DNA from: Myxococcales bacterium | Lineage (GTDB): Bacteria; Myxococcota_A; Polyangia; Polyangiales; Houyiibacteriaceae | Length of the DNA: 41,303 nt | Assembly (NCBI GenBank): GCA_029862185.1 | Contig: JAOTXX010000035.1 | Span: 1-41,303, forward strand | Reading direction: 5' to 3' | Shown here: positions 7,447 through 35,295 of the stretch, piece after piece | Layout of the letters: each line of letters begins with the position of its first letter | Numbering within the stretch: position 1 is the first letter of the stretch | The notes under the pieces: generated by a model | Told to the model about the DNA's origin: nothing | The model's database searches: none | The model's input: the letters and a program-made list of their open reading frames with translations, nothing else | Translations under genes and position numbers: made by a program

Positions 7447-8130
7447 CTACTGCTCGATGCAATAGAGGCCCAACGGCGTGGAGCAGGCCGGGGTGATGTT
7501 CTCGGTCCAGGTCGCGGTCGTCGAGTTGCTCGCGCCGCACAAGGCGATGCCGCTGGAGCCATTCGTGAACGCTCCGCAGTCGCTAGTGGCATAGGAGGCG
7601 CCGGTGGCCAGGGTTCCAGTCCATATATCGCCGCGGCGGAATACGCCGTTCGCGTCCAGGTTGATCGGCGCGAGGATCGAGCCGTCGACTAGATCGTCCC
7701 AGTCGTCGGCGACCCTCGTTCCATCCACCAGGACGTACGGACCACTGGCTTGGGTCAGACGATTGGAAACCGGTGAGGCGATGGTCGACAGCCAGGCTTT
7801 GAACTCGCCTTCGAGTCCTGCTTCCAGGGCTTGGGCCGCGCAGATTGCATCGGCGCCCGCAATGCCGCCGAGGTTCGCGGTCTGGTTGGTGTCGGTTCGG
7901 AAGATCCGCCACTCGGTCATGCCGGCGTCAACGCCAGCGTCGGGGCCAGCGTCGGGGCCAGCGTCCGTGGAAGCGTCTGGGCCAGCGTCCGTGGAAGCGT
8001 CTGGGCCAGCGTCGGCGCCAGCGTCGGCGCCAGCGTCAGGGCCAGCGTCCGTGACAGCGTCGGAGCCTGTGCAGGCGGAAGAGACCGTCATGGCGAGGGC
8101 TAGGAGAAAGCTGTACCAGCTACATTTCAT
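7447..8130 (-). CDS. DUF1554-like lipoprotein with Asp-Ala-Gly repeat linker
   Basis: The start is set at the ATG at 8130, which gives a lipoprotein signal (MKCSWYSFLLALAM, lipidation Cys20). A longer frame from 8475 is only the shadow of the neighbouring gene. After the signal comes a DAG/DAS/DAGP low-complexity linker of about 45 residues. The C-terminal domain of about 160 residues has GADAICAA, FKAWLS and a final LGLYCIEQ, characteristic of DUF1554 (PF07588), a C-type-lectin/endostatin-like fold found in Leptospira and myxobacterial surface proteins. The product is 227 residues, likely surface exposed, with binding function unknown. It lies 43 bp downstream of the SnoaL-like gene. Confidence 0.8.
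   Translation of the reverse strand: MKCSWYSFLLALAMTVSSACTGSDAVTDAGPDAGADAGADAGPDASTDAGPDASTDAGPDAGPDAGVDAGMTEWRIFRTDTNQTANLGGIAGADAICAAQALEAGLEGEFKAWLSTIASPVSNRLTQASGPYVLVDGTRVADDWDDLVDGSILAPINLDANGVFRRGDIWTGTLATGASYATSDCGAFTNGSSGIALCGASNSTTATWTENITPACSTPLGLYCIEQ
7921..8058 (-). repeat. Degenerate 6-12 bp repeats encoding an Asp-Ala-Gly linker
   Basis: On the plus strand the unit appears as gccagcgtc with variants. It encodes a run of DAGP, DAGA, DAST and DAGV units between the lipid anchor and the folded domain. Such linkers are common in myxobacterial lipoproteins and probably hold the domain away from the membrane. Confidence 0.8.
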
Positions 8131-19303: not shown

Positions 19304-20671
19304 CTAGGTTTCGGAGTCGGCTTCGTCTTCGCTTGGGGCTTGCTCTAGACGAAGGCGCCGGATTCGACGGCGACTGACGTCTAAGACGGTTGCCACGTAG
19401 GGCCCCACGAGCACCCGGTCGCCGGACTTTGCCATGCGTCCGAGGCGCGCGGTCACGTGCCCACCGATGGTGTCCTCATCTTCGGCTTCTTCATCACTCA
19501 GCTCGAAATCGAGCCTGTCGCAGGTTTCGGGGACGGACATGCGACCGGCGATTTCGTAGACACCCTCTTGCACTTCTTGAAACTCTCGGTCCACCTCATC
19601 GAACTCGTCGCCGAGCGGTCCCACGATTTCCTCGAGTGCGTCTTCTCGGAACGCCAATCCGATGACGGTCCCGCGCTCGTCCACAACGGCCGCGCAGTGT
19701 TGCTGGTTCGTTTGCAACTCGATGAGGAAGTTGGAAATCGACATGGTGTCCGGGACGAAAATCGCGTCTCGTGCCAGGGCGCGAAAATCAAACCCCTTCC
19801 CGTCGAGGACTTGTTGCATCACGTCTTTGGTGTGTACGAACCCGATGATCGTGTCCAAACCAACCTCGCAGAGCGGCAAGCGGCTGTGGCCACTGTCCCG
19901 GATGACCGCGACGTTATCCTCGTCGGGGAGGCCCATGGCTAGATATGCAACGTCGATGCGTGGCACCACGATATGCCGGACCTCGAGCTCCATGATTCGA
20001 AAGACGTTTCCGGTGACGTCGTGCTCGAGCTTCGAGAGGTGCCCCGCGGCCCACGAAAGCGCGAGCATCGACCGAATCTCATCCGACGTGTGTGTGCCCT
20101 CGTCGCCGTGATGCGCCGGCAAACCCGCCAGGCGCAGCAACCGGTTGGAGATGCTGTTGATGACGACGATGAACGGCCTAAAGACCCAGGTGAAAAGCTT
20201 GAGCGGCAGCGCGGTACGGAGAGCGGTCGATTCGGCCCGGCGAAGCGCCCACATCTTCGGTGCCTGTTCGCCCACCGTCATGTGCAAGACGGTAATCACG
20301 GCGAAGGCAATGGTGATCGAAACGATCGGGACCCAGGTCGCATCCGCGGCGACTTCGATACCGAGCCCACCGAGCGCTGCGATGAGCAACACCGACACGG
20401 CGGGCTCTCCCAAGGCGCCGAGGATCAGGCTCGCCAGAGTAATACCAAGCTGGCACGCCGAAAGGTAGCGATCCATGTGCTTGAGGATGTGCTGGACCAC
20501 AACGGCGCTTCGGTTTCCTTCCTTCGCCAGGTTGTCGATGCGCGTCGCACGAACCTTCACAAGCGCAAACTCGGTGGCGACGAAGAAGCCATTGAGGAGC
20601 ACGAAGAAAAGCGTTGCGCCCAAGCGCCAGGCAACCCCCACGGCATCGAGCTGTGTGTGCGGATCGCTCAT
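19304..20671 (-). CDS. CNNM/CorC-type (HlyC/TlyC) membrane protein with CBS pair
   Basis: The 455-residue protein has an N-terminal DUF21/CNNM membrane domain (LNGFFVATEFALVKVRATRI, QLGITLASLILGALGEPAV, MTVGEQAPKMWAL), a CBS pair (about 215-340: VPRIDVAYLAM, GFVHTKDVMQQV, AAVVDERGTVIGL) and a C-terminal CorC_HlyC domain (GRMSVPETCDRLDF, GGHVTARLGRM). Bacterial members are linked to Mg2+ or Co2+ efflux and export. Although labelled hemolysin, there is no evidence of toxin function. It lies 78 bp downstream of mgtE in the same orientation, which supports a Mg2+-related role and possible co-transcription. Confidence 0.88.
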   Translation of the reverse strand: MSDPHTQLDAVGVAWRLGATLFFVLLNGFFVATEFALVKVRATRIDNLAKEGNRSAVVVQHILKHMDRYLSACQLGITLASLILGALGEPAVSVLLIAALGGLGIEVAADATWVPIVSITIAFAVITVLHMTVGEQAPKMWALRRAESTALRTALPLKLFTWVFRPFIVVINSISNRLLRLAGLPAHHGDEGTHTSDEIRSMLALSWAAGHLSKLEHDVTGNVFRIMELEVRHIVVPRIDVAYLAMGLPDEDNVAVIRDSGHSRLPLCEVGLDTIIGFVHTKDVMQQVLDGKGFDFRALARDAIFVPDTMSISNFLIELQTNQQHCAAVVDERGTVIGLAFREDALEEIVGPLGDEFDEVDREFQEVQEGVYEIAGRMSVPETCDRLDFELSDEEAEDEDTIGGHVTARLGRMAKSGDRVLVGPYVATVLDVSRRRIRRLRLEQAPSEDEADSET

Positions 20672-20749
20672 GGCATGCGGCTCGCTTGCATCTTTGACGT
20701 TTTGGGCATCGTGCTCCTCTATACCAGCTTCTCGAGACTGCTCGCCGCG

Positions 20750-22054
20750 CTAAGAGGCCGCGAGCATGCCAGCAAGCAAGGTTGCAAGCCCGAGAAAGGT
20801 GAAAAAGCCCACGATGTCGGTCACGGTCGTGAGAATGATCGAAGAAGCGGTCGCTGGATCTCGGTTCAGCTTGACCAGTACGACGGGGATGATCGCGCCG
20901 GCGCCCGACGCCGCGATCATCGAGATGATCATCGCCAGAAACATGACGAAGGCGAGGCCGAGATTGCGGCTCCAAATGTAGACACCGATGGAGGTCACGA
21001 TGGAAATCGCGATCCCGTTGATCAGGCCGACGATCAGCTCCTTCACGAGTACGCGGAAGCCTTGCGACACGCGGAACTCTCGCAGGGCAAGCCCGCGCAT
21101 CGTGACGGCGAGGGCCTGGGCTCCCGTGTTGCCCGACTGGCCGGCGACCACCGGAAGAAGGACCGCGACGGCCGTGAAACGAGCGATCGTGCCTTCGAAA
21201 AGACCCACCACCGATGCCGCGAGGAAGGCGGTGACCAAATTGACGTTCAACCAAGGAAGGCGACTTCGTACGCCGACCCACGGGCGAGAGAGGGCGCGTT
21301 CTTCCCTCGAACCACCCACCATCTGCTGCAGATCCATGATGGCATCTGCTTGTGCAGCCTCGACGAGGCCGACCTGACGAATGATGCCGACGACATGGTT
21401 CTGAAGGTCGACCACGGGTAGGCTCGAGAGGTGATACTTGTTCAAGAGCTCGACCACCTCTTCACGGGAGGTCATCGGATGAACGGACACGACGCGCGGG
21501 CTCTTGAGCTCTGCCAACTGCTGGTCCGGTGCCGCGCCCACGACGTCTTGCAGGCGCACCACGCCGCTGAACGCTCCCTCGTCGTCGATGATGACGAGAT
21601 CGGAGATCCTTCGATCGCGAAGCCTCTGAATTCGCTCGAGGGCGTCTCGCACGGAGGTTTCTCTGGTGAAGACGGCGACCCGCGTGTCCATGATCTGGCC
21701 CGCGGTGCCTGGGGGATAGGCCAGAATGTCTTTGATTTCTCGTGCCAGAGAGGTCGAAACCGCACCGAGCAGATCGGAACGTGTTTCTTCGGGTAGGCGT
21801 GCCAACAGGTTTGCCGCGTGGGCCGGGTCGAGCCCGGACACGAGGTGTTCCACCCCCTTCTCCCCTCCTGCAGCCAGGATTGTCGCGGCGTAGTCCCTTT
21901 GCATGTAACCAAGAACCCTCGCCGTCGTTTGCGGCGATTCCGCAGCGAGCACGGAAGCGACCTGTTCAGGGGCGGCACTCTCCATCTGCCGCGCCGCCTC
22001 GCCGGGATGCAAGCGCATGAACTGCCCCACGACAACATGGACTGCGGCGCTCAT
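20750..22054 (-). CDS. mgtE: Magnesium transporter MgtE
   Basis: The 434-residue protein has the full MgtE architecture: helical N domain (about 1-125, ending YPPGTAGQIMDTRVAVF), CBS pair (about 130-250, with SDLVIIDDEGAFSGVVRL and SSLPVVDLQNHVVGII), a connecting helix and a five-helix membrane domain (about 270-434). The pore segment contains LPVVAGQSGNTGAQALAVTMRG. MgtE is a homodimeric Mg2+ channel gated by Mg2+ bound between the N and CBS domains. The start overlaps by 4 bp the end of an upstream gene encoding a second, membrane-free MgtE-like protein. This placement implies coordinated synthesis. Confidence 0.93.
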   Translation of the reverse strand: MSAAVHVVVGQFMRLHPGEAARQMESAAPEQVASVLAAESPQTTARVLGYMQRDYAATILAAGGEKGVEHLVSGLDPAHAANLLARLPEETRSDLLGAVSTSLAREIKDILAYPPGTAGQIMDTRVAVFTRETSVRDALERIQRLRDRRISDLVIIDDEGAFSGVVRLQDVVGAAPDQQLAELKSPRVVSVHPMTSREEVVELLNKYHLSSLPVVDLQNHVVGIIRQVGLVEAAQADAIMDLQQMVGGSREERALSRPWVGVRSRLPWLNVNLVTAFLAASVVGLFEGTIARFTAVAVLLPVVAGQSGNTGAQALAVTMRGLALREFRVSQGFRVLVKELIVGLINGIAISIVTSIGVYIWSRNLGLAFVMFLAMIISMIAASGAGAIIPVVLVKLNRDPATASSIILTTVTDIVGFFTFLGLATLLAGMLAAS

Positions 22055-22899
22055 TTGCGCCCTCGAGCGGGTTCGCTCGATCCCATCAAGACCGCGGCGG
22101 CCGACTCGACCAGTCCTCGCAGCCCGAGGCTATAGAGCTCGCCGAGGGCCAATGCGGTTTGAGCCCCGTGATCCTGTACCCCGGTGTCGAGCAACCGCTC
22201 TTCGAGCTTTCGGATCGACGAATAGCGGAGGACGCCGACGAAACGTCCATCGGCCTCGACGACAGGCAATGCGTGGAATCGCCTCCATGCCGGGTGGGCC
22301 ACAATCGCTTGCGAGCTTGCCCGCGCAGAAACGGATTGGACGGGACGAACGGCGATCAAACCGAGAAGCTGATCGCGCCTCGCCGCCATGAGCTCCGGTG
22401 AGTTGAGGACTCCCACGAGCCTCTGGTCCTCCGAGACCACGTACACATAGTGCAAGGCGTGCTTCGCGGCCCTCTGCAGTCGGTTCAGTGCGTCGCCGGC
22501 CGAGACGGATTCCGCGAGGGCAAGTGCTTCTGGATCCATGAGTGCGCCTGCTGTGTCCTGGGAGTACCGAAGGAGATTCTTCGTGGCTTTGCGCGCCGCG
22601 GGGCTCAGCGATTCGATGACCCGCGAACGCGGCTCCGGGCCCATCGCGCGAATGATCGTAGCGGCGACGTCATGGCGGGTCGCAGAGAGCGCGGCTGCAG
22701 CCTTGCTCACCTCGACTAGATCGAGGGCGCGCGCGGCCAACGTAGGGGCAAGCCATGGAAGAAGCTGGGCCAAGCGATCGAAGGGAAGGTCCCCCATCAC
22801 CTCTGCGGCATCTGCAACGGGGAGCGATTCCAGGACCCGCGCGACCTCGGCAGGGTGCGCATCGGTGAATGCGTTGAGCAACCTCGATTCAAGCTCCAC
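22051..22899 (-). CDS. Soluble MgtE-like regulatory protein (N domain plus CBS, no membrane part)
   Basis: The 282-residue protein repeats the MgtE cytosolic organisation: a helical N domain with HPAEVARVLESLPVADAAEV and FDRLAQLLPWLAPTLAARAL, then the junction LLRYSQDTAGALMDPEALAL and a CBS pair (YVYVVSEDQRLVGVLN, HALPVVEADGRFVGVLRY). It stops before any transmembrane helix. It is coupled to mgtE by an ATGA overlap and its own start overlaps the MscS-like gene by 11 bp. A Mg2+ or nucleotide sensor that forms mixed dimers with MgtE, or that regulates another partner, is a reasonable inference. It is not a truncation artefact, since the frame is intact and its sequence differs from the full MgtE. 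Confidence 0.85.
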   Translation of the reverse strand: MELESRLLNAFTDAHPAEVARVLESLPVADAAEVMGDLPFDRLAQLLPWLAPTLAARALDLVEVSKAAAALSATRHDVAATIIRAMGPEPRSRVIESLSPAARKATKNLLRYSQDTAGALMDPEALALAESVSAGDALNRLQRAAKHALHYVYVVSEDQRLVGVLNSPELMAARRDQLLGLIAVRPVQSVSARASSQAIVAHPAWRRFHALPVVEADGRFVGVLRYSSIRKLEERLLDTGVQDHGAQTALALGELYSLGLRGLVESAAAVLMGSSEPARGRK

Positions 22900-23728
22900 G
22901 GGGACCCTCCTCGCTCAAGAGCACGCACCGACTGTTCCCGAAATCCCGACCTGGAATCGAGATCTCGCCATCGGCAGTCTCCAACATGACCGCAGTCCGA
23001 CTCGTCCTCACGATGCGACCTTCGTCTGGGCCAAGACGAACCAGCTGGCCGATTCGGTGAGACTTATTCACGTAGTGCATCGCAAGAATGTCCGCTACCA
23101 GCTCGCGCGCTCCGAGGCCAAACGCCAACGCTGCGGCCGCGAGTGCGGCGGCCAGCAGAATCATGAAGATCGCGCTTAGAAGAGAGACATCCAATCCGAG
23201 CCGCTCCGCTGCGACCAGGCCGGTGGCAATCACGATCGACAGCTGCGCGAACCGGGCCAAGCCTCGGGCTTGCGATACTGGCAATCGAATGGCCGTCTTC
23301 ATGATCGCGTTTCGCGCGAGCCGGCCCGCAACGATGCCGACGAACAAGAGCGCAGCGGCAATGGCGATTCTCGGCAGGTAACTGGCAAAGGCGCCGACCC
23401 ACCGGCTGAAGACGGCAATGTTGAGCGCATCGATGGCGAGCATCGAGGTCATCAACAAGACCAGCCAGTACACGCCGCCCGCTGCGACGTTGCCAACGTC
23501 GTTGTCTTCGACTGCCTCGGACCAAGCCGCACGGCCCGTCCCCGAAGGTATTTGCATCGCGAGCCTTCGGAAGACCCCGCGGACGACCCTTCGCAGGGTC
23601 CAAGCCAAGCCCCAACCGAGAATCAAGACGATGACCGCCGTCACGAGATTGGGCAGTGCGGCGATCAGGCTCAATTTCCATTGGGTGAGTGAAGACAGGA
23701 TTTGGTTTGTCGTGTCGTCGAGCTTCAT
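22889..23728 (-). CDS. MscS-like mechanosensitive channel protein
   Basis: The 279-residue protein begins after a good GGAGAGAT site. Several hydrophobic segments occur (ALPNLVTAVIVLILGWGLAW; YWLVLLMTSMLAIDAL; IAIAAALLFVGIVAG; SIVIATGLVAAERLG), followed by a pore-like AAALAAAALAFGLGARELVADILA and a short beta domain (GRIVRTSRTAVMLETADGEISIPGRDF). This is the small-conductance mechanosensitive channel fold with the Ala/Gly-rich pore helix. The C-terminal cytosolic cage is much reduced. The N-terminal QVDD-type region resembles the conserved TM-helix (TM_helix) subgroup. Role: osmotic-shock ion release in the inner membrane. The end overlaps the soluble MgtE-like gene. Confidence 0.85.
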   Translation of the reverse strand: MKLDDTTNQILSSLTQWKLSLIAALPNLVTAVIVLILGWGLAWTLRRVVRGVFRRLAMQIPSGTGRAAWSEAVEDNDVGNVAAGGVYWLVLLMTSMLAIDALNIAVFSRWVGAFASYLPRIAIAAALLFVGIVAGRLARNAIMKTAIRLPVSQARGLARFAQLSIVIATGLVAAERLGLDVSLLSAIFMILLAAALAAAALAFGLGARELVADILAMHYVNKSHRIGQLVRLGPDEGRIVRTSRTAVMLETADGEISIPGRDFGNSRCVLLSEEGPRGA

Positions 23729-23808
23729 GGGATCTCTCCGGCTGAGTCATGGCGACCGGCTTCTCGAGCTGCCGGCGCCCAGGTGCTTGGTTCAGGAGGT
23801 GGTGGCGA

Positions 23809-24318
23809 TTATTCCGCGCTCGCAGCGACGTTGCGATCTCGAGCCCAGCTGGCCTCGTCAGTGCCCGTCGCCATCTCTTCTCCGACGGAGGTGATCGAAA
23901 CCCGGCTCGAATTCAAACCGAGGGCGCGCATGTAGTCCCGAACGGCGCTCGCACGTCGTTCGCCCAGTGCGATGTTGTATTCCTCGGTGCCCCGCGGATC
24001 GCATGCACCGGTCAACAGGAGCCCGCCTTCGAGCCCTTGGCCACGGAAGCATTCGACGGCCTCCTGGATCGTCGCAAGTGCAACGCTGTCGAGCTCTGCT
24101 GAATCGAAGGCGAAATACACCGTCTGCAGCTCGCAGCGGACTTCTTCGATCGGTACCGGTTCGGGCTCTGGAGGAGGCGCTTCCGCCCCCGTGGTGACCT
24201 CTGGCTCGGCCTCCTCTGCCTCCTTCTTGCAGCCGGCCATCGCCGCTGCACTCACGCAGGCGCAGATGGAAATCGTGAGAAGCCTATTCAGACGCATTTT
24301 CATGTTCGTTTGCGACAT
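23809..24318 (-). CDS. Pal/OmpA-family peptidoglycan-associated lipoprotein
   Basis: From the ATG at 24318 (AAGGAG 8 bases upstream on the coding strand) the product is 169 residues. A lipoprotein signal ends at a Gly-Cys (AAAMAGC), followed by an acidic Glu/Pro linker. The OmpA_C domain has VYFAFDSAELD, then GACDPRGTEEYNIALGERRASAVRDYM and SVGEEMATGTDEASWARDRN, close to Pal. The Asp and Arg that grip diaminopimelate are present. It would tether the outer membrane to the cell wall. It is the first gene of a leftward set (MscS-like, soluble MgtE-like, MgtE, CorC-like) and has a sigma54-type promoter in front of it. Confidence 0.87.
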   Translation of the reverse strand: MSQTNMKMRLNRLLTISICACVSAAAMAGCKKEAEEAEPEVTTGAEAPPPEPEPVPIEEVRCELQTVYFAFDSAELDSVALATIQEAVECFRGQGLEGGLLLTGACDPRGTEEYNIALGERRASAVRDYMRALGLNSSRVSITSVGEEMATGTDEASWARDRNVAASAE

Positions 24319-24383: not shown

Positions 24384-24402
24384 CCAGCAGGAACCGTGCC
24401 AA
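24384..24402 (-). promoter_or_regulatory. Sigma54 (-24/-12) promoter of the Pal-lipoprotein operon
   Basis: On the minus strand TTGGCACGGTTCCTGCTGG has GG (24400-24399) and GC (24388-24387) separated by exactly 10 bases. The -24 box TTGGCACG is perfect and the -12 box CTGC has one deviation from TTGC. The predicted transcription start is near 24375, 57 bases before the Pal ATG. Confidence 0.75.
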
Positions 24403-24473
24403 AGACTGCCGCCCGCGGATTGTGCCTGGCGCCGAGGCCGCTGGAAAGAGGGTCTGCCGCATGAGAGCGCGCG

Positions 24474-24522
24474 AGTGCAGAATTTGCTCTCCCTCAGACT
24501 GGAGCGACGCAATCGCTGCACA
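24474..24522. promoter_or_regulatory. Two tandem activator sites (UAS) upstream of the Pal promoter
   Basis: AGTGCA-GAATT-TGCTCT (24474-24490) matches 11 of 12 arm bases of AGTGCA-N5-TGCACT. A second, weaker copy, GACGCA-ATCGC-TGCACA (24506-24522), matches 8 of 12. Their centres lie 32 bp apart, near -107 and -139 of the predicted leftward start, the usual range for sigma54 activator binding. The same geometry occurs before rimK. Confidence 0.55.
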
Positions 24523-24591: not shown

Positions 24592-26100
24592 ATGGATGTC
24601 ACCGCCTCGCGCGCTGCGCTGGATTGTCCGAATGCGGCTCTGGTTACGCCGGGCTCGTTCGAGCCGCGCAGCCACTTCTACGCGCGGGTGCTGAACGCGC
24701 AGATTCACCCGCTGGTTTCCTTCTTCCTGCGCATGTCGAATCGGCGGATCGTCAATCGCTACTGTCACCTTAACCCTCGCGTCGATCCGGATTTCTTGGA
24801 GGAAGTGCTCAGCTACACCCCGAAGCACTTCAGGTGGGCGGGCGCAGACCTGTTTTGCACCACGACCGCGGCGGGAAACAGGCGGCTGGTCGTGGTCGAA
24901 ACCAATTCCTGTCCTTCCGGAAACAAGTCGATGCCGATCCTTTCGGACGACGATGAACAAGCTGGATACCGAAAGCTGATCGAAACGGCGTTTCTGCCCC
25001 TCATTTCGAAGCGCAAGGCGACCGCGGGGGACTTGGCCGTCGTTTTCGACAAAAACTACATGGAGGCTTCCGGGTACGCCGCCGTCATCGCGGATCTCAC
25101 GGGCGAAAATGTCTACCTCACTCCATTTCCACATGGTGGCGAAAACCCACCGGCTCGATTCACCGATGGACTGCTCGAAGTGAGAGATGTCCATGGGCAC
25201 TGGAAGTCCATTCGTGCAGCCTTCCGCTACGTAACTCAAAAACCTTGGAACCGGATCCCGATTCGATCACGCACTCGCATCTTGAATCCGGTGGCGACCT
25301 GCCTTTCAGGCGGAAGGAACAAGCTCGTCGCGATGAAGGCCTACGAGATCTACAACGCCGAGCTCGAAGCTTCCGGCCTGCAGATTCGAACGCCTCAAAC
25401 CATCGGGGACGTGTCCAAGGACGAGGTGCCGCTCTGGGTCCAACGATTCGGTGGGCACGCCGTGGTGAAGATTCCTTACAGCAACGCGGGGCAAGGCGTC
25501 TTTACGATCGTTAGTCCACGCGAGCTCGACCGTTTCATGGAGATGGATCACCCGTACGAACGGTACGTCGTGCAGAGTCTCATCGGGAACTACACTTGGA
25601 GCTCCGTCGAGCGCGCAGGGCGCTACTATCACGTGGGGACGATCCCAGATCGGCATGGGCACATCTACGTGGCCGATCTTCGCATCATGGTTTGCGGTGG
25701 TGCGAATGGATTTCGTCCTCTTGCGATTTACGCGCGCCGCTCGAGAAAGCCGCTTCCCTCCGTCCTAGAGGACGGGGAGTCATCCTGGGATGTTCTCGGG
25801 ACCAACCTGTCGGAGCGCCAGCCCGATGGCTCCTGGGCCGCATCGACGGAGCGGCTCCTGCTGATGGATCGGCGTGATTTCAATACGGTCGGCGTTGGAA
25901 CCGACGATCTGATCGAGGCCTACATTCAGTCGGTACTGGCCACGATCGCGGTCGACAAGATGACCGCCAGGCTGCTCACGCAGAAAGGAAGCCTCCGCCG
26001 CGGCCTCTTCCGCTCGCTCGATGACGACCCGGCGCTTCTCGAAGAGATTCGTCAGGGCGCGAAAGGTGGCAAGATCATCGTCCCGGACGTACGGCCCTAG
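24592..26100 (+). CDS. Divergent ATP-grasp-like protein, function unknown
   Basis: The ATG at 24592 gives 502 residues; an open frame extends to 24475 but runs through the regulatory region. ATP-grasp-like elements occur in the second half: HAVVKIPYSNAGQGVFTI (about 289-306, nucleotide-binding lysine and Gly loop), ERYVVQSLIG (adenine-contact strand) and VADLRIMVCGG (about 360-370). The expected metal-binding END/ELN triad is not obvious. The N-terminal 230 residues (FEPRSHFYARVLNAQIHPLVS, VVVETNSCPSGNKSMP) match no family I can name. It probably forms an amide or ester bond using ATP. It is convergent with the GshB-like gene (6 bp apart) and part of the amidoligase region. Confidence 0.65.
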   Translation: MDVTASRAALDCPNAALVTPGSFEPRSHFYARVLNAQIHPLVSFFLRMSNRRIVNRYCHLNPRVDPDFLEEVLSYTPKHFRWAGADLFCTTTAAGNRRLVVVETNSCPSGNKSMPILSDDDEQAGYRKLIETAFLPLISKRKATAGDLAVVFDKNYMEASGYAAVIADLTGENVYLTPFPHGGENPPARFTDGLLEVRDVHGHWKSIRAAFRYVTQKPWNRIPIRSRTRILNPVATCLSGGRNKLVAMKAYEIYNAELEASGLQIRTPQTIGDVSKDEVPLWVQRFGGHAVVKIPYSNAGQGVFTIVSPRELDRFMEMDHPYERYVVQSLIGNYTWSSVERAGRYYHVGTIPDRHGHIYVADLRIMVCGGANGFRPLAIYARRSRKPLPSVLEDGESSWDVLGTNLSERQPDGSWAASTERLLLMDRRDFNTVGVGTDDLIEAYIQSVLATIAVDKMTARLLTQKGSLRRGLFRSLDDDPALLEEIRQGAKGGKIIVPDVRP

Positions 26101-28219: not shown

Positions 28220-29614
28220 ATGGCCCAGGAACAGACCGGTCGGATCCTGATCGTCGAGAGCGACCGGGCTCTTCAGTCCAAGCTAGAGGCGCAGCTCTCG
28301 GCGATTGGGCATATCGTGGAGACGGCACCCGACAGCGCCGCCGCCCTCGAGCACCTGGAGGGGTCGATGCCTGACGTGGTCTTGCTGGCGCTCGACCCGG
28401 AAAGGATGGGTGGCTTCGACTTCCTGCGAGAGGCCAGAGCCCTTCTTCCAGCAGCCTCGTTTATCGCAATGGCGGAAACCGGCTCCACGGACACTGCGGT
28501 CAAAGCACTGGCGTGCGGCGCAGACCGCCTTCTCACGCGGCCTGTTCGGCCGGACGCGCTGGCGCTCATCGTCGAGCGGTCCCTCGACAAACCCCTTCAT
28601 GCGAGAGACGCCATGGAAGCCCGGGCCGGTGCGGCCGCAACCCTGCCCACGATCGCGCTCATGGACCGTGTCGTGGGCGTGCACCCTTCGATGCAACGCC
28701 TTTTCAACCGTTTGCTTCAAGCCGCCAAGAGCCGATCGACCGTGCTGATCCAAGGCGAAACGGGCACAGGCAAGGAGCTCATCGCCAAAGCGATTCACGA
28801 GCACTCCCTGAGGAGCGAGGGCCCCTTGGTTCGGCTGAACTGCGCGGCACTCGCGGAGAGCGTCTTGGAGTCTGAGCTTTTCGGGCACGAAAAGGGGGCG
28901 TTCACCGGCGCGGTCACGCGACGAAAGGGGCGGTTCGAGCAGGCGGACGGTGGAACGTTGTTCCTCGACGAGCTGAGCGAGATGCCGCTGTCGGTGCAAA
29001 TCAAATTGCTCCGGTTTCTGCAGGAACGGGAGCTCGAGCGGGTGGGCGGAAACGAAACGGTGTCGGTGAACGTGCGGGTCGTCGCGGCCACGAACCGCGA
29101 CCTAAAATCGCTGGTAGAAGACGGAAAGTTCCGCGAAGACCTCTACTTCCGCCTGAAGGTGGTCGTCCTCGAGGTGCCGCCACTGCGCGCGCGGCCCAGC
29201 GACATTCCGCTCTTGGCCGACCATTTTCTCCGGCTTTATGCCGATGAGAACGACAAGCAGGTACAAGGCTTCACCCATGACGCAAAGGAAGCTCTGGTCG
29301 CCTACCCCTGGCCCGGAAACGTTCGCGAGCTTCAGCATGCGATCGAGCAGGCGGTGGTGCTCTGCGAGAAGGAGCTCATCGACACCGAAGACTTGCCGAT
29401 CGAGCCGCCCGACCGGGAGGCCGAACCCTTGAGCCTGCTGGTCCCTGGCGTGACGCTCGCCGAAGTCGAGCGATATACCATCATGAAGACCCTCGAAGCC
29501 GTCGGCGGCTCACCGACCAAAGCCGCAGCGATTCTCGGTATCAGCAAGCGGACCATTCACTATCGCCTCGAGGAGTGGGGGCTCGCGAAAACCAAGCCAG
29601 AAGACACCTGCTAG
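28220..29614 (+). CDS. NtrC-family sigma54 activator with degenerate receiver
   Basis: The 464-residue protein has three parts: receiver (about 8-125), AAA+ (about 150-390) and a Fis-type helix-turn-helix (about 425-460, ILGISKRTIHYRLEEWGL). The AAA+ domain has the Walker A GETGTGKE (about 178), the sigma54-contact loop GAFTGA (about 226), LFLDE and the RFREDLYFRLKV-type segment, so it should drive open-complex formation. In the receiver the normal phosphoacceptor is Ala57 (PDVVLLALDPERMGG), the conserved Ser/Thr is Ala, and the Lys is Arg (TRPVRP); phosphorylation is therefore unlikely. No histidine kinase gene lies in the window. The receiver probably senses something else, or the protein is constitutively active. 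It is the likely regulator of the nearby -24/-12 promoters. Confidence 0.92.
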   Translation: MAQEQTGRILIVESDRALQSKLEAQLSAIGHIVETAPDSAAALEHLEGSMPDVVLLALDPERMGGFDFLREARALLPAASFIAMAETGSTDTAVKALACGADRLLTRPVRPDALALIVERSLDKPLHARDAMEARAGAAATLPTIALMDRVVGVHPSMQRLFNRLLQAAKSRSTVLIQGETGTGKELIAKAIHEHSLRSEGPLVRLNCAALAESVLESELFGHEKGAFTGAVTRRKGRFEQADGGTLFLDELSEMPLSVQIKLLRFLQERELERVGGNETVSVNVRVVAATNRDLKSLVEDGKFREDLYFRLKVVVLEVPPLRARPSDIPLLADHFLRLYADENDKQVQGFTHDAKEALVAYPWPGNVRELQHAIEQAVVLCEKELIDTEDLPIEPPDREAEPLSLLVPGVTLAEVERYTIMKTLEAVGGSPTKAAAILGISKRTIHYRLEEWGLAKTKPEDTC

Positions 29615-29841
29615 CGGTTGAATCGGTCGTCCGGCGTCAGCACATCGAGGACACCGTCCACGAGAAAAGCCTGCTTTCGTAGGACTTCGACGAGCTCGGC
29701 TGCGATGCAGATGGCTTCGGCCAGTCGACCGGTTTCGATGCTGGCTTCCATGGAGCGAGCCGCCCGGAGGAGCCGTTGATTGTCGGAACGGATTTTCTCG
29801 ACCACTTCAGGCGTGACCAAATCTGATTGCGGATGGGTCAT
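29611..29841 (-). CDS. Small helical protein of unknown function
   Basis: The start ATG (29841) has GGAGG five bases upstream on the coding strand; a longer start at 29871 is less likely. The product has 76 residues and is almost entirely predicted helix (VVEKIRSDNQRLLRAARSME; LAEAICIAAELVEVLRKQA), with no signal peptide or Cys pair and no family I recognise. Codon use is typical of neighbouring genes (GC-rich third positions), so it is real. It is convergent with the sigma54 activator (4-bp overlap) and carries its own -24/-12-type promoter. Its position beside rimK suggests an accessory or adaptor, by analogy only. Confidence 0.75.
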   Translation of the reverse strand: MTHPQSDLVTPEVVEKIRSDNQRLLRAARSMEASIETGRLAEAICIAAELVEVLRKQAFLVDGVLDVLTPDDRFNR

Positions 29842-29865
29842 GACTGCCTCCGGGGCACTTCCAAG

Positions 29866-29883
29866 AAGCAAGTGCCGTGCCTA
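29866..29883 (-). promoter_or_regulatory. Sigma54 (-24/-12) promoter of the 76-residue gene
   Basis: On the minus strand TAGGCACGGCACTTGCTT has GG (29881-29880) and GC (29869-29868) 10 bases apart. The -12 box TTGCTT is perfect and the -24 box differs only by TAGGCACG for TTGGCACG. The predicted start near 29856 gives a 15-base leader that includes the GGAGG site. Confidence 0.65.
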
Positions 29884-29944
29884 GTGACGGCGATTCAAGA
29901 ATCACCATCCCCGTGCACTGACAGTTGCGGCGCACTCTTCGAAC

Positions 29945-29994
29945 AGTGCAAGGTCTGCAGCGGCTCGGAGGGGTGCCAGTGCAGTTCCTGCACT
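29945..29994. promoter_or_regulatory. Two tandem activator sites (UAS) shared by divergent sigma54 promoters
   Basis: AGTGCA-GTTCC-TGCACT (29978-29994) is a perfect palindrome, and AGTGCA-AGGTC-TGCAGC (29945-29961) matches 10 of 12 arm bases. Their centres are 33 bp apart, about three helical turns. They sit at about -106 and -139 of the rimK promoter and about -97 and -130 of the leftward 76-residue gene promoter. A further half-site TGCACT lies at 29914-29919. Confidence 0.65.
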
Positions 29995-30064
29995 CGCGCG
30001 CCGAGCGGACGCTGCGAGCCTCGGAAAAGATCCTTCTGCCCCATTTCTGCGCCGCTCGGGGCGC

Positions 30065-30083
30065 TTGGCACAGAACCTGCTTT
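30065..30083 (+). promoter_or_regulatory. Sigma54 (-24/-12) promoter of the rimK operon
   Basis: TTGGCACAGAACCTGCTTT has GG (30067-30068) and GC (30079-30080) separated by exactly 10 bases, with the -24 box TTGGCAC and the -12 box CTGC. The predicted start near 30092 leaves a 30-base leader containing AGGAG before the rimK ATG. Confidence 0.78.
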
Positions 30084-30121
30084 GGCGACTCGCGAAACCT
30101 CAGTTGACCAAGGAGATAGAA

Positions 30122-31024
30122 ATGAAGATCGGCATCCTATCTAGGAACCAAAAACTCTACTCGACCAATCGCCTCAAGGACGCAGCGGTCGCTAGAGGAC
30201 ACTCGGTTCGTGTCGTGGACTACACGCGATGTTACATGAATATCACGTCGCATCGTCCCGAGGTTCTGCTCGCTGGCAAGCCACTTCACTTCGATGCCGT
30301 GATTCCCCGCATTGGCGCATCTCATACCTTTTACGGGACGGCGGTCGTTCGGCAGTTTGAAATGCAACGGACCTATCCAGTCAACACGTCGCAGGCGATC
30401 TCACGATCACGCGACAAGCTTCGCGCGCTTCAGCTGCTCGCCCGTGAAGGCATTGGAATGCCGGTGACTGGCTTCGCGCGGTCTACGCACGACATCGAGG
30501 GCTTGCTGAAGCTCGTTGGCGGGGCTCCCCTGATCGTGAAGCTCCTCGAGGGCACCCAGGGGATCGGTGTGGTGCTAGCAGAAACCGACAAAGCAGCGGA
30601 ATCGGTCGTGGCTGCGTTTATCCAGCTCGACGCGAACATCCTGGTGCAGGAGTTCATCAAAGAGGCCGGCGGAGCGGACATCCGCGCATTCGTCATCGGC
30701 GACAAGGTGGTTGCCTCGATGATGCGTCAGGGGCCGGAGGGGGAATTTCGGTCCAACCTGCACCAAGGTGGTTCAGGCTCGAAGGTCAAGCTCACGCCCG
30801 AAGAGCGGAGCACGGCGGTCCGCTCTGCAAAGACCCTCGGCCTTCGGGTCGCAGGCGTCGACATGCTGCGCTCCAATCACGGACCGGTCGTGATGGAGGT
30901 GAACTCGTCGCCAGGGCTCGAAGGAATCGAGGCGACGAGTGGGAAGGATGTCGCTGGCGCGATCATCGAGTATCTGGAGAAGAATGCAAAACAAGGCAAG
31001 ACGAAAGACCGGATTGAAGGCTAG
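30122..31024 (+). CDS. rimK: RimK, ATP-grasp glutamate ligase (ribosomal protein S6 modification type)
   Basis: The 300-residue product follows E. coli RimK along its whole length: MKIGILSRN start, [29 protein letters not shown], the nucleotide loop [28 protein letters not shown], the substrate loop FRSNLHQGG, and the metal site [28 protein letters not shown]. RimK adds glutamates to the C-terminus of ribosomal protein S6 in E. coli and can make poly-glutamate; the target here is not proven and rpsF is not in the window. A strong AGGAG precedes the ATG at 30122, and a sigma54 promoter lies upstream. It heads an operon with an AstE-like hydrolase and an AsmA-like protein. Confidence 0.95.
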
Positions 31025-32000
31025 CCCGAGAGCCCCTTTCGAGATCAACGGCGTGACGGCCCCCGCGGGCAAGCTCACTCAGGTCGAGCTTCGCCTTGCG
31101 CGTCTGCCCACTGGAATGTGGATCTCGCTTCCCGTGGGCGTGCTGCACGGTCGACGCGAAGGGCCGGTCATTTGGGTGAGCGCGGCCATTCACGGCGACG
31201 AGCTCAACGGCGTCCCGATCATCCGCCATCTGCTCGATGCCATCGATCCGAGGCGCCTTTCGGGCACGGTTCTCGTAGTGCCGGTGGTCAACGTGCAAGG
31301 CCTGATTCAGCAGTCGCGATACCTTCCGGATCGCCGCGACCTCAACCGCTGCTTCCCCGGCTCGAAACGGGGGTCCTCCGCTGCTCAGCTGGCACACCTG
31401 TTCATGACGGAAATCGTCGCACGCTGCGAGCTCGGGCTAGACCTCCACACAGGCTCGGGCGGCCGAACGAACCTGCCACAGCTACGTTGCGACTTGGATG
31501 AGCCGGGGACGCTTCGTCTTGCGCGCGAATTCGGCGCGCCCGTCCTCTTGCATTCGCGCTTGCGTGATGGCTCCCTGCGAGCGGCCGCTCGCGAGATCGA
31601 TAAGGTCGTTCTGGTCTACGAGGCGGGCGAGGCGAGCCGTTTCAACACCAAGGCCATTGAAATGGGGGTCGAGGGGACACTTCGGGTGATGAAGTCACTT
31701 GGAATGATCGAGGACTCGGTCCAGGGCCCGAAAGTGGCGCCCCGCATCTCTCGGGCGAGCTCTTGGGTGCGAGCCCGTCGGACGGGGTTTTGCGAAATGA
31801 CGGTGCACCTCGGGACGGAGGTTGCCGAGGGCGACAGCGTCGCGGTCATCTTCGATGCGCTCGGTCAGGATCGGTCATCGGTGAAGGCAAAGCACCATGG
31901 GATCGTCATTGGACACGTTACGTCCCCGCTCGTCCATCGCGGTGACGCCATCGCGCACATCGCGGAGCTCCCGGAGACCGTGGGAAGTGAGGGTGAATGA
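30984..32000 (+). CDS. Second M14/AstE-like hydrolase, paired with RimK
   Basis: The ATG at 30984 follows GGAGA and overlaps the rimK end by 41 bp; the product is 338 residues. Zinc ligands are seen in [10 protein letters not shown] (His70, Glu73) and [13 protein letters not shown], and the probable catalytic Glu lies in [15 protein letters not shown]-terminal beta domain (about 265-338) contains [15 protein letters not shown], and HHGIVIGH follows. It is a paralogue of the AstE-like protein at 27081-28127, with related motifs but clearly divergent sequence. A deglutamylating or other reversing role for RimK products is a plausible inference. Confidence 0.85.
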
Positions 32001-34771
32001 AGAAGTCGAAGAGAAACATAGCGATTGCGGTCGTTGCGCTCTTGGGGGTGATCGTCGCCGGCGTCGCCCTCGTGCCGGTGCTGTTCCGAGATCAAATCGT
32101 CGAGCGGTTGCGAACCGAGCTCAACGATCGAGTTGACGCGACGGTGACTTTCTCCGATGTCGATGTCTCGTTGCTGTCGACGTTTCCGACGCTCACCGCG
32201 GAGGTCTCGGAGCTGACGGTCACCGGCAAAGGCGACTTCGCGGAGGTCACGCTCTTGACGGCCAAGTCGATCGGCGCAGGCATCGACCTGATCGGGCTCG
32301 TTCTGAGGCGTGAAATTACGATCGAGTCGATCGAGATGAACACGCCCAAGGTCTACCTCGTCGTCCGCCCCGATGAGAGGGCGAACTACGACATCGTTCC
32401 TGAGCAAGCAGACGGCGCAGAAGCACCCGACGGGACCCTCGCCTTCGAGATTAAACGAATCCGAATCGACGATGGGTCGCTGACCTATGTCACTCCAAGT
32501 GTTCGCGTCGTCGTCGCTGGACTCGAACACGACGGCCGCGCCAAGATTTCGGGCGCCGTTCAGGAGCTTTCCTTGAAGACCACAGTCGATGCCCTCACGG
32601 CGCGACTCGGAGGCATTTCGTACTTGAAGAAGGCGAAGGCGAGTGTCGATGTGAACGCCACCGTCGACACCGATAAAGAGCTTTTGACGCTTCACGCGCT
32701 CGATGTCGCCGTCCAGCAGCTTGCCCTCGAAGGGACTGGACAGATCGGCTGGGCTGGCGATGGAACGGCGCTCGACTTGCAGCTGGCTTCCAAGAAGGGG
32801 CTTCCGATTAAGGCGCTGATCTCCGCGATCCCAAATGCCTACGCTGCGGACTTCGAAGGGCTGACGGCCAGCGGCACGTTCTCGCTCGCGGCAATGATTC
32901 AGGGAGAGCTGGGGCCGGGCGATGATGATGTCCCCTCGTTCTCCGCCACGGCGAAGGTCCAGAACGGAGCTTTCAAGTATCCAGACCTGCCGCGTGGCGT
33001 CACCGACCTGGTACTCGATGCGTCGGTGAAGCACCCCGGAGGCAATCTGGACAGGATGCGAATCGACGTTCCGAAGTACGGGTTTGCGGCGGGGAAAAGC
33101 CAAGCCAAGGGGCGCGTCACCGTCACGCGGCCGATTTCGCAGCCACGGATCGACCTCAGCTTAGACGGCCGCTTCGACCTCGCCGAGATCTCCAAGGCGT
33201 ATCCAATTCCCGACGTCGAAGGGGTGGAGGGCCTGGTCACGGCAACGGTCGAGCTCGAAGCAAAGGGCGAACGAATCGAGAAGCTCTCCGGAAACGTCGA
33301 GGTCTCGGACCTCAGCTACCGCCCGGCCAATGCTCCTCCCGTCCGCATCCGCACCGCGCGCATCGTACTGTCCCCGGAGAGCACGACGATCAAGGGGCTC
33401 GAGGCGCAGGTTGCAGAGAGTGACGTCAGCGTCAGCGGGGTCGTGTCCCCGCTGACCACGGTGCTCCTGGACGATCAGAAGGTCACCGCGAGTTTGTGGC
33501 TGAAGTCGAAGCGTCTTCGGGTCGAGGACTTTGGATCGAGTGAGGAATCCGATGCCACTGACGGAGAAGCGTTCCTGCTGCCCGACAACATCGACGCGAA
33601 GCTTCAGTTCGAGGTCGGAACGCTCACCTACAAAGACCTGGTGCTCCAAAACTTCAAGGGCGCCGGCAGGCTGCGGGATCGAAAGCTTCTTCTCGAAGGT
33701 GTCCGTGCAGATGCGATTGGCGGGTCGATGAAGGTCGACGGCACGGTGGAGACGCCCATCGATGCCCCTGCACGGTTCGACATTCACTACGCGGTGGACC
33801 AGGCGCGCTTCGTCGAAGCGTTCGAATCGCTTCCTTCGATGCGAGCCTTCGTGCCGGTTGCGCAATTCCTCGATGGACGGTTTTCGACGGACTTCGACGC
33901 AAGCGGAACCCTGGGCGAAGACCTGTCACCTCAGCTCAAAACGATCGCAGCAAGTGGAATTGCAGCCGCGGTCCAAAGCAAGCTCAACAGCGAATTCAAG
34001 CCGCTGGCCGCGCTCAACGAAGCGGTGCCTACGATTCCGAAGCCCCTGGACATCGATAGCTTTCGAGCGCGTTTCAAAATCGACGATGGCGCGGTGCGAG
34101 TGACCCCCTTCACCGTCAAGGCGCGGGGAGTGTCGATGGTGGTCGGCGGAACACACGGGCTGGACCAGGAGATGAATTATCAGGTGTCCACCGAAGTTCC
34201 GTTGGACAAGCTGACGTCGAAGCTTTCCAAAGAGATCCAAGTGCTGAACTTAGACCTTTCGAAAGCAAATGTGGTTGACGTCCGGGCGAATCTGACGGGC
34301 TCGATGACGGCGCCACGCGTTTCGGTGAACGTAGACACCAAGGGACTTCGTGGAGCGGTTGCCGATGCCGTTTCGGCGGAACTTGCCGCGCAGAAAGCGC
34401 GCGCGCTGAAAGAAGTGACGGAGCAAACGAAGCGACTGATCGCAGAAGCGGAGAAGCGCGCGGCGCAGATCCGCGCAGAGGCTGCCAAGGCCGCGGAGCT
34501 AGCGCGGAAAGAAGGGTATGCGCGGGCCGACCAGCTCGAGCACAAGAGCGCGCAAAACCCGATCGCTGCCATTGCAGCCAAAGAGAGCGCGAAGCGACTT
34601 CGGGCCGAGACCGACAAGCGCGCCAAGCAACTCGTGAGCGAGGCAGACAAACGCGCGAGCCAAGTGGTGGATGAAGCGCGCAAACGTGAGGCTCAAATGC
34701 TCTCCGAGGCAGAGAAGCGGGGCGACCAAACGACCGAGGCGATCGACGGGCAGACCGACAAGGTACGATGA
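31997..34771 (+). CDS. AsmA-family protein with charged coiled-coil C-terminus
   Basis: The 924-residue protein is coupled to the AstE-like gene by ATGA (31997-32000) and has GAGGGTGA upstream. A single N-terminal membrane anchor (IAIAVVALLGVIVAGVALVP) is followed by AsmA-type repeats (VDVSLLSTFPTLTAEVSELTV, VTLLTAKSIGAGIDLIGL), beta-rich to about residue 780. AsmA/TamB-like proteins span the periplasm and move phospholipids or affect outer-membrane assembly. The last 140 residues (about 785-924) change to a long helix full of Glu/Lys/Arg/Ala (KRAAQIRAEAAKAAELA, AEKRGDQT). This tail is not part of the normal AsmA architecture. It lies downstream of RimK, and the Glu-rich end could be a target or a scaffold. 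Confidence 0.85.
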   Translation: MKKSKRNIAIAVVALLGVIVAGVALVPVLFRDQIVERLRTELNDRVDATVTFSDVDVSLLSTFPTLTAEVSELTVTGKGDFAEVTLLTAKSIGAGIDLIGLVLRREITIESIEMNTPKVYLVVRPDERANYDIVPEQADGAEAPDGTLAFEIKRIRIDDGSLTYVTPSVRVVVAGLEHDGRAKISGAVQELSLKTTVDALTARLGGISYLKKAKASVDVNATVDTDKELLTLHALDVAVQQLALEGTGQIGWAGDGTALDLQLASKKGLPIKALISAIPNAYAADFEGLTASGTFSLAAMIQGELGPGDDDVPSFSATAKVQNGAFKYPDLPRGVTDLVLDASVKHPGGNLDRMRIDVPKYGFAAGKSQAKGRVTVTRPISQPRIDLSLDGRFDLAEISKAYPIPDVEGVEGLVTATVELEAKGERIEKLSGNVEVSDLSYRPANAPPVRIRTARIVLSPESTTIKGLEAQVAESDVSVSGVVSPLTTVLLDDQKVTASLWLKSKRLRVEDFGSSEESDATDGEAFLLPDNIDAKLQFEVGTLTYKDLVLQNFKGAGRLRDRKLLLEGVRADAIGGSMKVDGTVETPIDAPARFDIHYAVDQARFVEAFESLPSMRAFVPVAQFLDGRFSTDFDASGTLGEDLSPQLKTIAASGIAAAVQSKLNSEFKPLAALNEAVPTIPKPLDIDSFRARFKIDDGAVRVTPFTVKARGVSMVVGGTHGLDQEMNYQVSTEVPLDKLTSKLSKEIQVLNLDLSKANVVDVRANLTGSMTAPRVSVNVDTKGLRGAVADAVSAELAAQKARALKEVTEQTKRLIAEAEKRAAQIRAEAAKAAELARKEGYARADQLEHKSAQNPIAAIAAKESAKRLRAETDKRAKQLVSEADKRASQVVDEARKREAQMLSEAEKRGDQTTEAIDGQTDKVR

Positions 34772-34779
34772 GCGAGGGG

Positions 34780-35244
34780 TCAGGGCCTTCGCTTCTTCTT
34801 TTTCCGTTTTGGAACGAGCTCGCGGAATAGATACGAGCGACCCGAGTCGACGAGGAAGCGCTTCCGAATCGCTTCCCGCCCGAGTAGCATCCGAAAGCCC
34901 ATCGCGTCGCGGGTCGTGAGCGTCAGGTCGATCGGCCAGCGCTCTCCACCAAGCTCGATGAGCGTGCGAATGATGGGACGGTACTCCCGGTGGCCGCTCG
35001 AGCTCTTGACGTGGCGATGCTCGTGAAGCGCTGCGACGCAGTGGATCGTCGTCTTGGTTTCGCGCTGAACCGGGTGGACGGTGAATCGGACGAGATCGCG
35101 GCCTCGGCGGGTGAAGACTTCGATATCATATGCGTGGAGCGATGAGCTGCGCGCGCCGGTATCGACCTTGGCTTTGATTCTAGCGAGGTCGAGGTCTGGC
35201 AAGGCCAGCCACTCGCGCCAGCCGATGATAGAGAGGTCCGACAT
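34780..35244 (-). CDS. RimB-type retropepsin-like protease (putative ATP-dependent zinc protease family)
   Basis: The start is set at the ATG at 35244 (154 residues), since IIGWREWLALPDL is the usual N-terminus; a TTG at 35280 would add 12 unrelated residues. The family (PF05618) signature is clear: RIKAKVDTGARSSSLHA (DTGA at 28-31, the aspartic-protease-like catalytic motif), HREYRPIIRT, and FRMLLGREAIRKRFLVD. Members are called RimB when linked to RimK. They are presumed to process glutamate-extended or other peptides. Convergent with the rimK operon (8 bp between) and 51 bp downstream of an MFS transporter gene. The C-terminus is Lys/Arg-rich. Confidence 0.85.
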   Translation of the reverse strand: MSDLSIIGWREWLALPDLDLARIKAKVDTGARSSSLHAYDIEVFTRRGRDLVRFTVHPVQRETKTTIHCVAALHEHRHVKSSSGHREYRPIIRTLIELGGERWPIDLTLTTRDAMGFRMLLGREAIRKRFLVDSGRSYLFRELVPKRKKKKRRP

Positions 35245-35295
35245 GGGGGGAAGGTGCCCTTCGCGCGGTTCGGAAAGCAAAGGAAAAGAGTTCCG

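Follow-up and report, generated by a model that had tools for sequence, protein, structure and literature searches.

A predicted two-way sigma54 control region beside rimK in an uncultured myxobacterial group

We examined the gap at positions 29842-30121 of a 41,303-nt stretch of Myxococcales DNA (GenBank contig JAOTXX010000035.1; the whole stretch analysed is referred to as the window). Comparison with related genomes makes it very likely that this gap is a bidirectional sigma54 control region for the genes on its left and right, under an enhancer-binding protein (gene at 28220-29614) that would also activate a second operon. The best, and a supported, reading of the layout is that both divergent sigma54 promoters share a single operator pair. 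The support comes from orientation, the operator pair and conservation, and not from a single promoter match. The features of the region are:

28220-29614, plus strand: enhancer-binding protein, candidate activator, with degenerate receiver, AAA+ sigma54 domain and Fis-type HTH
29611-29841, minus strand: 76-aa helical protein, predicted product of the left promoter, no family match
29867-29881, minus strand: left -24/-12 (sigma54) element GGCACggcacTTGCT, kept in six genomes, predicted +1 at about 29856
29945-29961, no strand: operator 1 AGTGCAaggtcTGCAgc, imperfect palindrome in the window, centre 29953
29978-29994, no strand: operator 2 AGTGCAgttccTGCACT, perfect 7-3-7 palindrome, centre 29986
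30066-30081, plus strand: right -24/-12 (sigma54) element TGGCACagaacCTGCT, kept in six genomes, predicted +1 at about 30092
30122-31024, plus strand: rimK, S6--L-glutamate ligase family (PRK10446), first gene of the right unit
30969-32000, plus strand: AstE/AspA-like deacylase, start uncertain, probably in one transcript with rimK
31997-34771, plus strand: large protein, no family match; its gene overlaps the AstE-like one and may close the right unit

Architecture of the gap

The two gene starts, at 29841 (minus strand) and 30122 (plus strand), leave a gap of 280 bp. The left element reads GGCAC-ggcac-TTGCT on the minus strand (29881-29867) and the right one TGGCAC-agaac-CTGCT on the plus strand (30066-30081), and both operators lie between them, 33 bp apart. 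The predicted +1 was placed by counting the C of the -12 GC as -12, giving 29856 (left) and 30092 (right). The first-pass annotation had described a gap of this size with outward -24/-12 elements in both directions, two palindromes between them and sites at -97/-130 from the left promoter and -106/-139 from the right; all of these elements were recovered at the positions listed above, and the distances of the operator centres, when recomputed, agreed exactly. We also found Shine-Dalgarno-like GGAGG and AAGGAG motifs at the two gene starts, between the predicted +1 and the ATG. Taken together, the outward -24/-12 elements, the intervening sites at enhancer distance and the linked enhancer-binding protein gene are those of a divergent sigma54 region, and rpoN is present in the genome. 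A simple consensus search detected no IHF-like site in the gap. The Rfam scan of 29500-30300 returned no match, so the palindromes are not accounted for by a known structured RNA.

Shuffling the gap 20,000 times with dinucleotides preserved gave a left-pointing element 90 times, a right-pointing element 125 times, both promoters together once and two palindromes never. The pattern GGCACN6TGCW has three sites in the 41-kb window, two of them correctly oriented in the gap and the third at 24386, while the gap is the sole occurrence of AGTGCANNNNCTGCA without mismatch in the 4.29-Mb assembly. Genome-wide, TGGCACN6TGCW was not enriched (42 sites vs 44 for the reversed control), so an isolated -24/-12 match is little evidence, and these genome-wide counts were not taken as such. 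A chance origin of the gap elements is disfavoured by their conservation.

Conservation across the genus

We compared the window's genome with five genomes of the same genus that have the orthologous region (G012, G001, G009, G003 and G011). Both promoters and both operators were kept in all six, with near-constant spacing. The two operators are 33, 33, 33, 33, 34 and 34 bp apart; a variable-gap pattern was used for this search, as a fixed 33-bp pattern misses G003 and G009 (34 bp). Operator 2 lies 88-90 nt from the right -24 element across the six genomes. On the left, where spacing is less constant, the promoter element and operator 1 are 60-64 nt apart, or 51 nt in G003. The GTGCA and TGC bases were invariant in 12 out of 12 operators.

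The layout of G012 is that of the window, with rimK on the right and the four elements conserved amid diverged sequence. The other four genomes (G001, G003, G009 and G011) keep the small gene, the gene for the activator, the operators and the promoters, and their right gene encodes a small acidic protein (89 aa in G001) instead of rimK. This protein, which is absent from the window's genome and G012, is always the first gene to the right of the two-way promoter, and has a conserved LDWF(A/S)EDPW segment, is acidic in its middle part and carries GWGPVR as a basic tail. Its genes were located as follows:

L047, 8428-8697
L048, 8069-8302
L061, 8460-8717
L062, about 7480-7690

Because four relatives have a different right gene yet keep all four elements, the conserved unit is the two-way module and not the pairing of the small gene with rimK. 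The earlier suggestion that one bound activator could serve both promoters gains comparative support from this, the layout persisting through replacement of the right gene, and two-way activity is inferred from the same conservation. The accompanying idea, that the small protein and RimK are co-expressed, calls for a refinement: the module is general to the six genomes, and that particular pairing is specific to the window's genome and G012.

The right promoter of G009 is followed by an unbroken series of genes on one strand, in the order acidic protein, unassigned protein, mechanosensitive channel, MgtE-N/CBS, MgtE, Na+/H+ exchanger, Na+/Ca2+ exchanger, rimK and AstE-like. With rimK this far downstream, the rimK-first order could stem from loss or transposition of the intervening genes, the direction of the swap being a parsimony guess. 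In G001 the rimB-like, rimK and astE-like genes lie 2-4 kb farther along, and the search gave no operator ahead of them. The more distant L054 showed no matching operators before rimK, and in L056 we found one similar palindrome before rimK, with no clear partner or promoter.

A second target operon

The gap is one of at least two predicted targets in the window, since 24386-24521 holds another promoter with an operator pair:

19304-24318, minus strand: second target operon, encoding a Pal-like lipoprotein, an MscS-like channel, an MgtE-N/CBS protein, MgtE and a CorC/CNNM-type protein
24386-24401, minus strand: -24/-12 element TGGCACGGTTCCTGCT of this operon
24475-24521, no strand: second operator pair, conserved in G012 and G005

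The promoter of this operon is kept in G012 and G005 together with the operator pair, and the distance from the first operator to the promoter is 120-121 nt in the three genomes, equal to that at the rimK promoter. A third operator class, with closer operators and a distance of 90-91 nt to the promoter, was found near the activator gene in G001, G003 and G011, and precedes a SET-domain gene in G001.

The candidate activator

The protein encoded at 28220-29614 is the best candidate activator for the operators, and we name it so chiefly because operator pairs co-occur with its orthologue. An orthologue (at least 75% identity) was present in 7 of the 19 genus genomes (G000, G001, G003, G005, G009, G011 and G012), the G005 copy being broken by a contig end. 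Operator pairs symmetric on both strands were found only in these seven genomes and always near the activator gene; the main pair of G009 and G003 was detected on one strand, its second site being imperfect. A paralogue with 56% identity occurs in most genus genomes, including those without operators, and has a canonical receiver with both Asp and Lys. Directly ahead of its start, this paralogue carries a -24/-12-like element of its own, TGGCACATCAACTGCA (G000:C163:37858-37950; L191 2859-2951).

The candidate has intact Walker and GAFTGA motifs, and its AAA+ sigma54 domain with GAFTGA, combined with a Fis-type HTH, is as in an NtrC-type response regulator. In its receiver (28220-28600) the phosphorylatable Asp is replaced by Ala or Glu and the Lys by Arg in the six genomes compared, so that the receiver Asp and Lys of an NtrC-type response regulator are both missing. 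By these residues it is an aspartate-less pseudo-receiver regulator, a class defined in PMC12632262, and no standard response regulator. With the phosphorylation site missing from the receiver, a classical histidine-kinase phosphorelay is probably not what signals to it. A Ser/Thr protein kinase gene adjoins the activator gene in G001 (L047 4703-6579, also with a PP2C phosphatase) and in G009 (L048 10390-11170). A neighbouring kinase or phosphatase is a possible alternative input for a receiver that is unable to take phosphate on Asp.

Proposed mechanism and alternative explanations

We propose that the 28220-29614 protein would bind the two operators (centres 29953 and 29986), which are three helical turns apart, and oligomerise there. 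DNA looping would then let it remodel sigma54-RNA polymerase at the left promoter, in front of the 76-aa gene, and by the same looping at the right promoter, in front of rimK, the AstE-like gene and possibly, as the predicted end of that unit, the following gene. The same activator would also switch on the lipoprotein/MscS/MgtE/CorC operon via the operator pair at 24475-24521. The points that speak against this reading are the less constant left distance, the lack of an IHF-like site, the imperfect operator 1 and the unenriched -24/-12 pattern.

Single -24/-12 matches being common by chance, and the distance between the left element and operator 1 being the more variable one, it might be argued that the right promoter alone matters, with the left element as a chance match or relic and the 76-aa gene transcribed in another way. 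We regard this as very improbable: the left element was the top-scoring minus-strand match in 6 out of 6 gaps, with the same gene downstream each time, and a search of 29400-30400 gave no sigma70-type promoter. Conservation also disfavours a one-way promoter with a left relic. The genome also contains 65 first-look enhancer-binding protein candidates, which leaves room for a scheme in which the operators are bound by another regulator (a repressor or co-activator), with the promoters driven by a different enhancer-binding protein. Against this, the symmetric operator pairs occur in exactly those genomes that have the activator orthologue, never far from the gene encoding it, and the operators lie at about -97 to -139, where enhancer sites usually lie (see also PMC4641369). 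We give very little credence to such a division of roles, and retain the 28220-29614 protein as the candidate that would act on both promoters.

This preferred reading may be extended by feedback of the left transcript, or of the 76-aa product, on the activator, through protein contact or antisense, a possible addition that we hold as rather doubtful. In each of the six genomes the small gene and the activator gene stand tail-to-tail, and in the window their stop codons overlap (29611-29614), so that leftward transcription would continue as antisense into the gene for the activator; the small gene also stays in place on the left when the right gene differs, and an activator without a phosphorylation site needs another input. 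Conversely, the stop-to-stop gap varies among relatives, and the protein shares 53-80% identity with the versions in the other five genomes, conservation that points to a role for the protein itself and not just for antisense. The 76-aa protein is predicted to form a two-helix hairpin (pLDDT 82, six sequences), and gave nothing significant against Pfam and NCBIfam. More speculative still, and unlikely as a whole, is a scheme in which the Asp-less sigma54 activator would control a small local regulon joining RimK glutamate ligation with Mg2+/cation transport, with the 76-aa gene feeding back by protein contact or convergent antisense, so as to form a self-limiting two-way switch with exchangeable right-side cargo.

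Comparison with known systems

The architecture is of a known kind, as in hyc/hyp, zraP/zraSR and orp1/orp2. In E. coli hycA/hypA and zraP/zraSR a central activator region serves both sides. These two systems differ from the gap in their activators (FhlA and ZraR), operator sequence and functions. Their spacers between divergent units are RpoN-bound (PMC8743547). In Desulfovibrio vulgaris, the divergent operons orp1/orp2 have the activator DVU2106, and their simultaneous activation was shown by reporters (PMC3897727). They have in common with the gap two divergent sigma54 promoters, upstream palindromic activator sites and an activator gene in the same cluster. In contrast, orp1/orp2 have a separate activator site per promoter (-131 and -88), an activator gene within the cluster and a need for IHF sites, whereas here one central pair lies between the promoters, the activator gene lies outside the gap and the search for IHF-like sites gave none. 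Divergent type III secretion operons of D. vulgaris also share an activator, DVUA0100 (PMC4641369).

The novelty lies in the operator, the activator and the regulon, that is, rimK and Mg2+ transport genes under predicted sigma54 control in an uncultured myxobacterial group. Apart from a single RpoN site in E. coli, detected in vitro, the literature searched gave no sigma54 activator for rimK. The E. coli site, at nfsA/rimK-ybjN, was found for the RpoN holoenzyme in a genomic SELEX screen (PMC8743547); it resembles the gap in placing RpoN beside rimK, and differs in its one-directional spacer and the lack of a dedicated activator. In the Pseudomonas rimABK system (PMC11957791, PMC12239564) rimK lies within the rim operon, and the portions consulted mention no enhancer-binding protein or paired operator; RimB-type proteases and poly-glutamate made by RimK are known there (PMC11957791). 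The RimK ligase and a RimB-type (PF05618) gene, nearby in the window, are common to both. Unlike in Pseudomonas, the gene after the window's rimK is AstE-like, and rimK is linked to genes for cation transport.

The locus offers a specific candidate activator and operators, together with cation transport genes predicted to be co-regulated, and from these follows a testable idea of when the cell needs RimK. A right gene that is replaced while the two-way promoter stays the same gives a natural test of how promoters evolve as modules, and the activator provides a compact case for how receivers without a phosphorylation site are switched, an open question according to PMC12632262.

RimK and neighbouring genes

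The window's RimK passes the cut-off of the curated S6 ligase model (PRK10446, 417 bits vs 331). The S6 protein of this genome has a long Glu-rich tail and the C-terminus ...NREEG, the last residue not being Glu. A RimB-type (PF05618) protease gene is found at 34780-35280 (minus strand), 3.7 kb from rimK and on the opposite strand, and in G001 and G033 the RimB-type gene directly precedes rimK. Finally, a protein of about 500 aa is encoded at 24598-26100 (plus strand), beside AstE-like and glutathione-synthetase-like genes. It had no sequence match in Pfam, NCBIfam or PDB, and shows 55-88% identity to records from Myxococcota, Saprospiraceae, Bdellovibrionota, cyanobacteria and Firmicutes; its GQG and lysine motifs lead us to guess at an ATP-grasp-like ligase.
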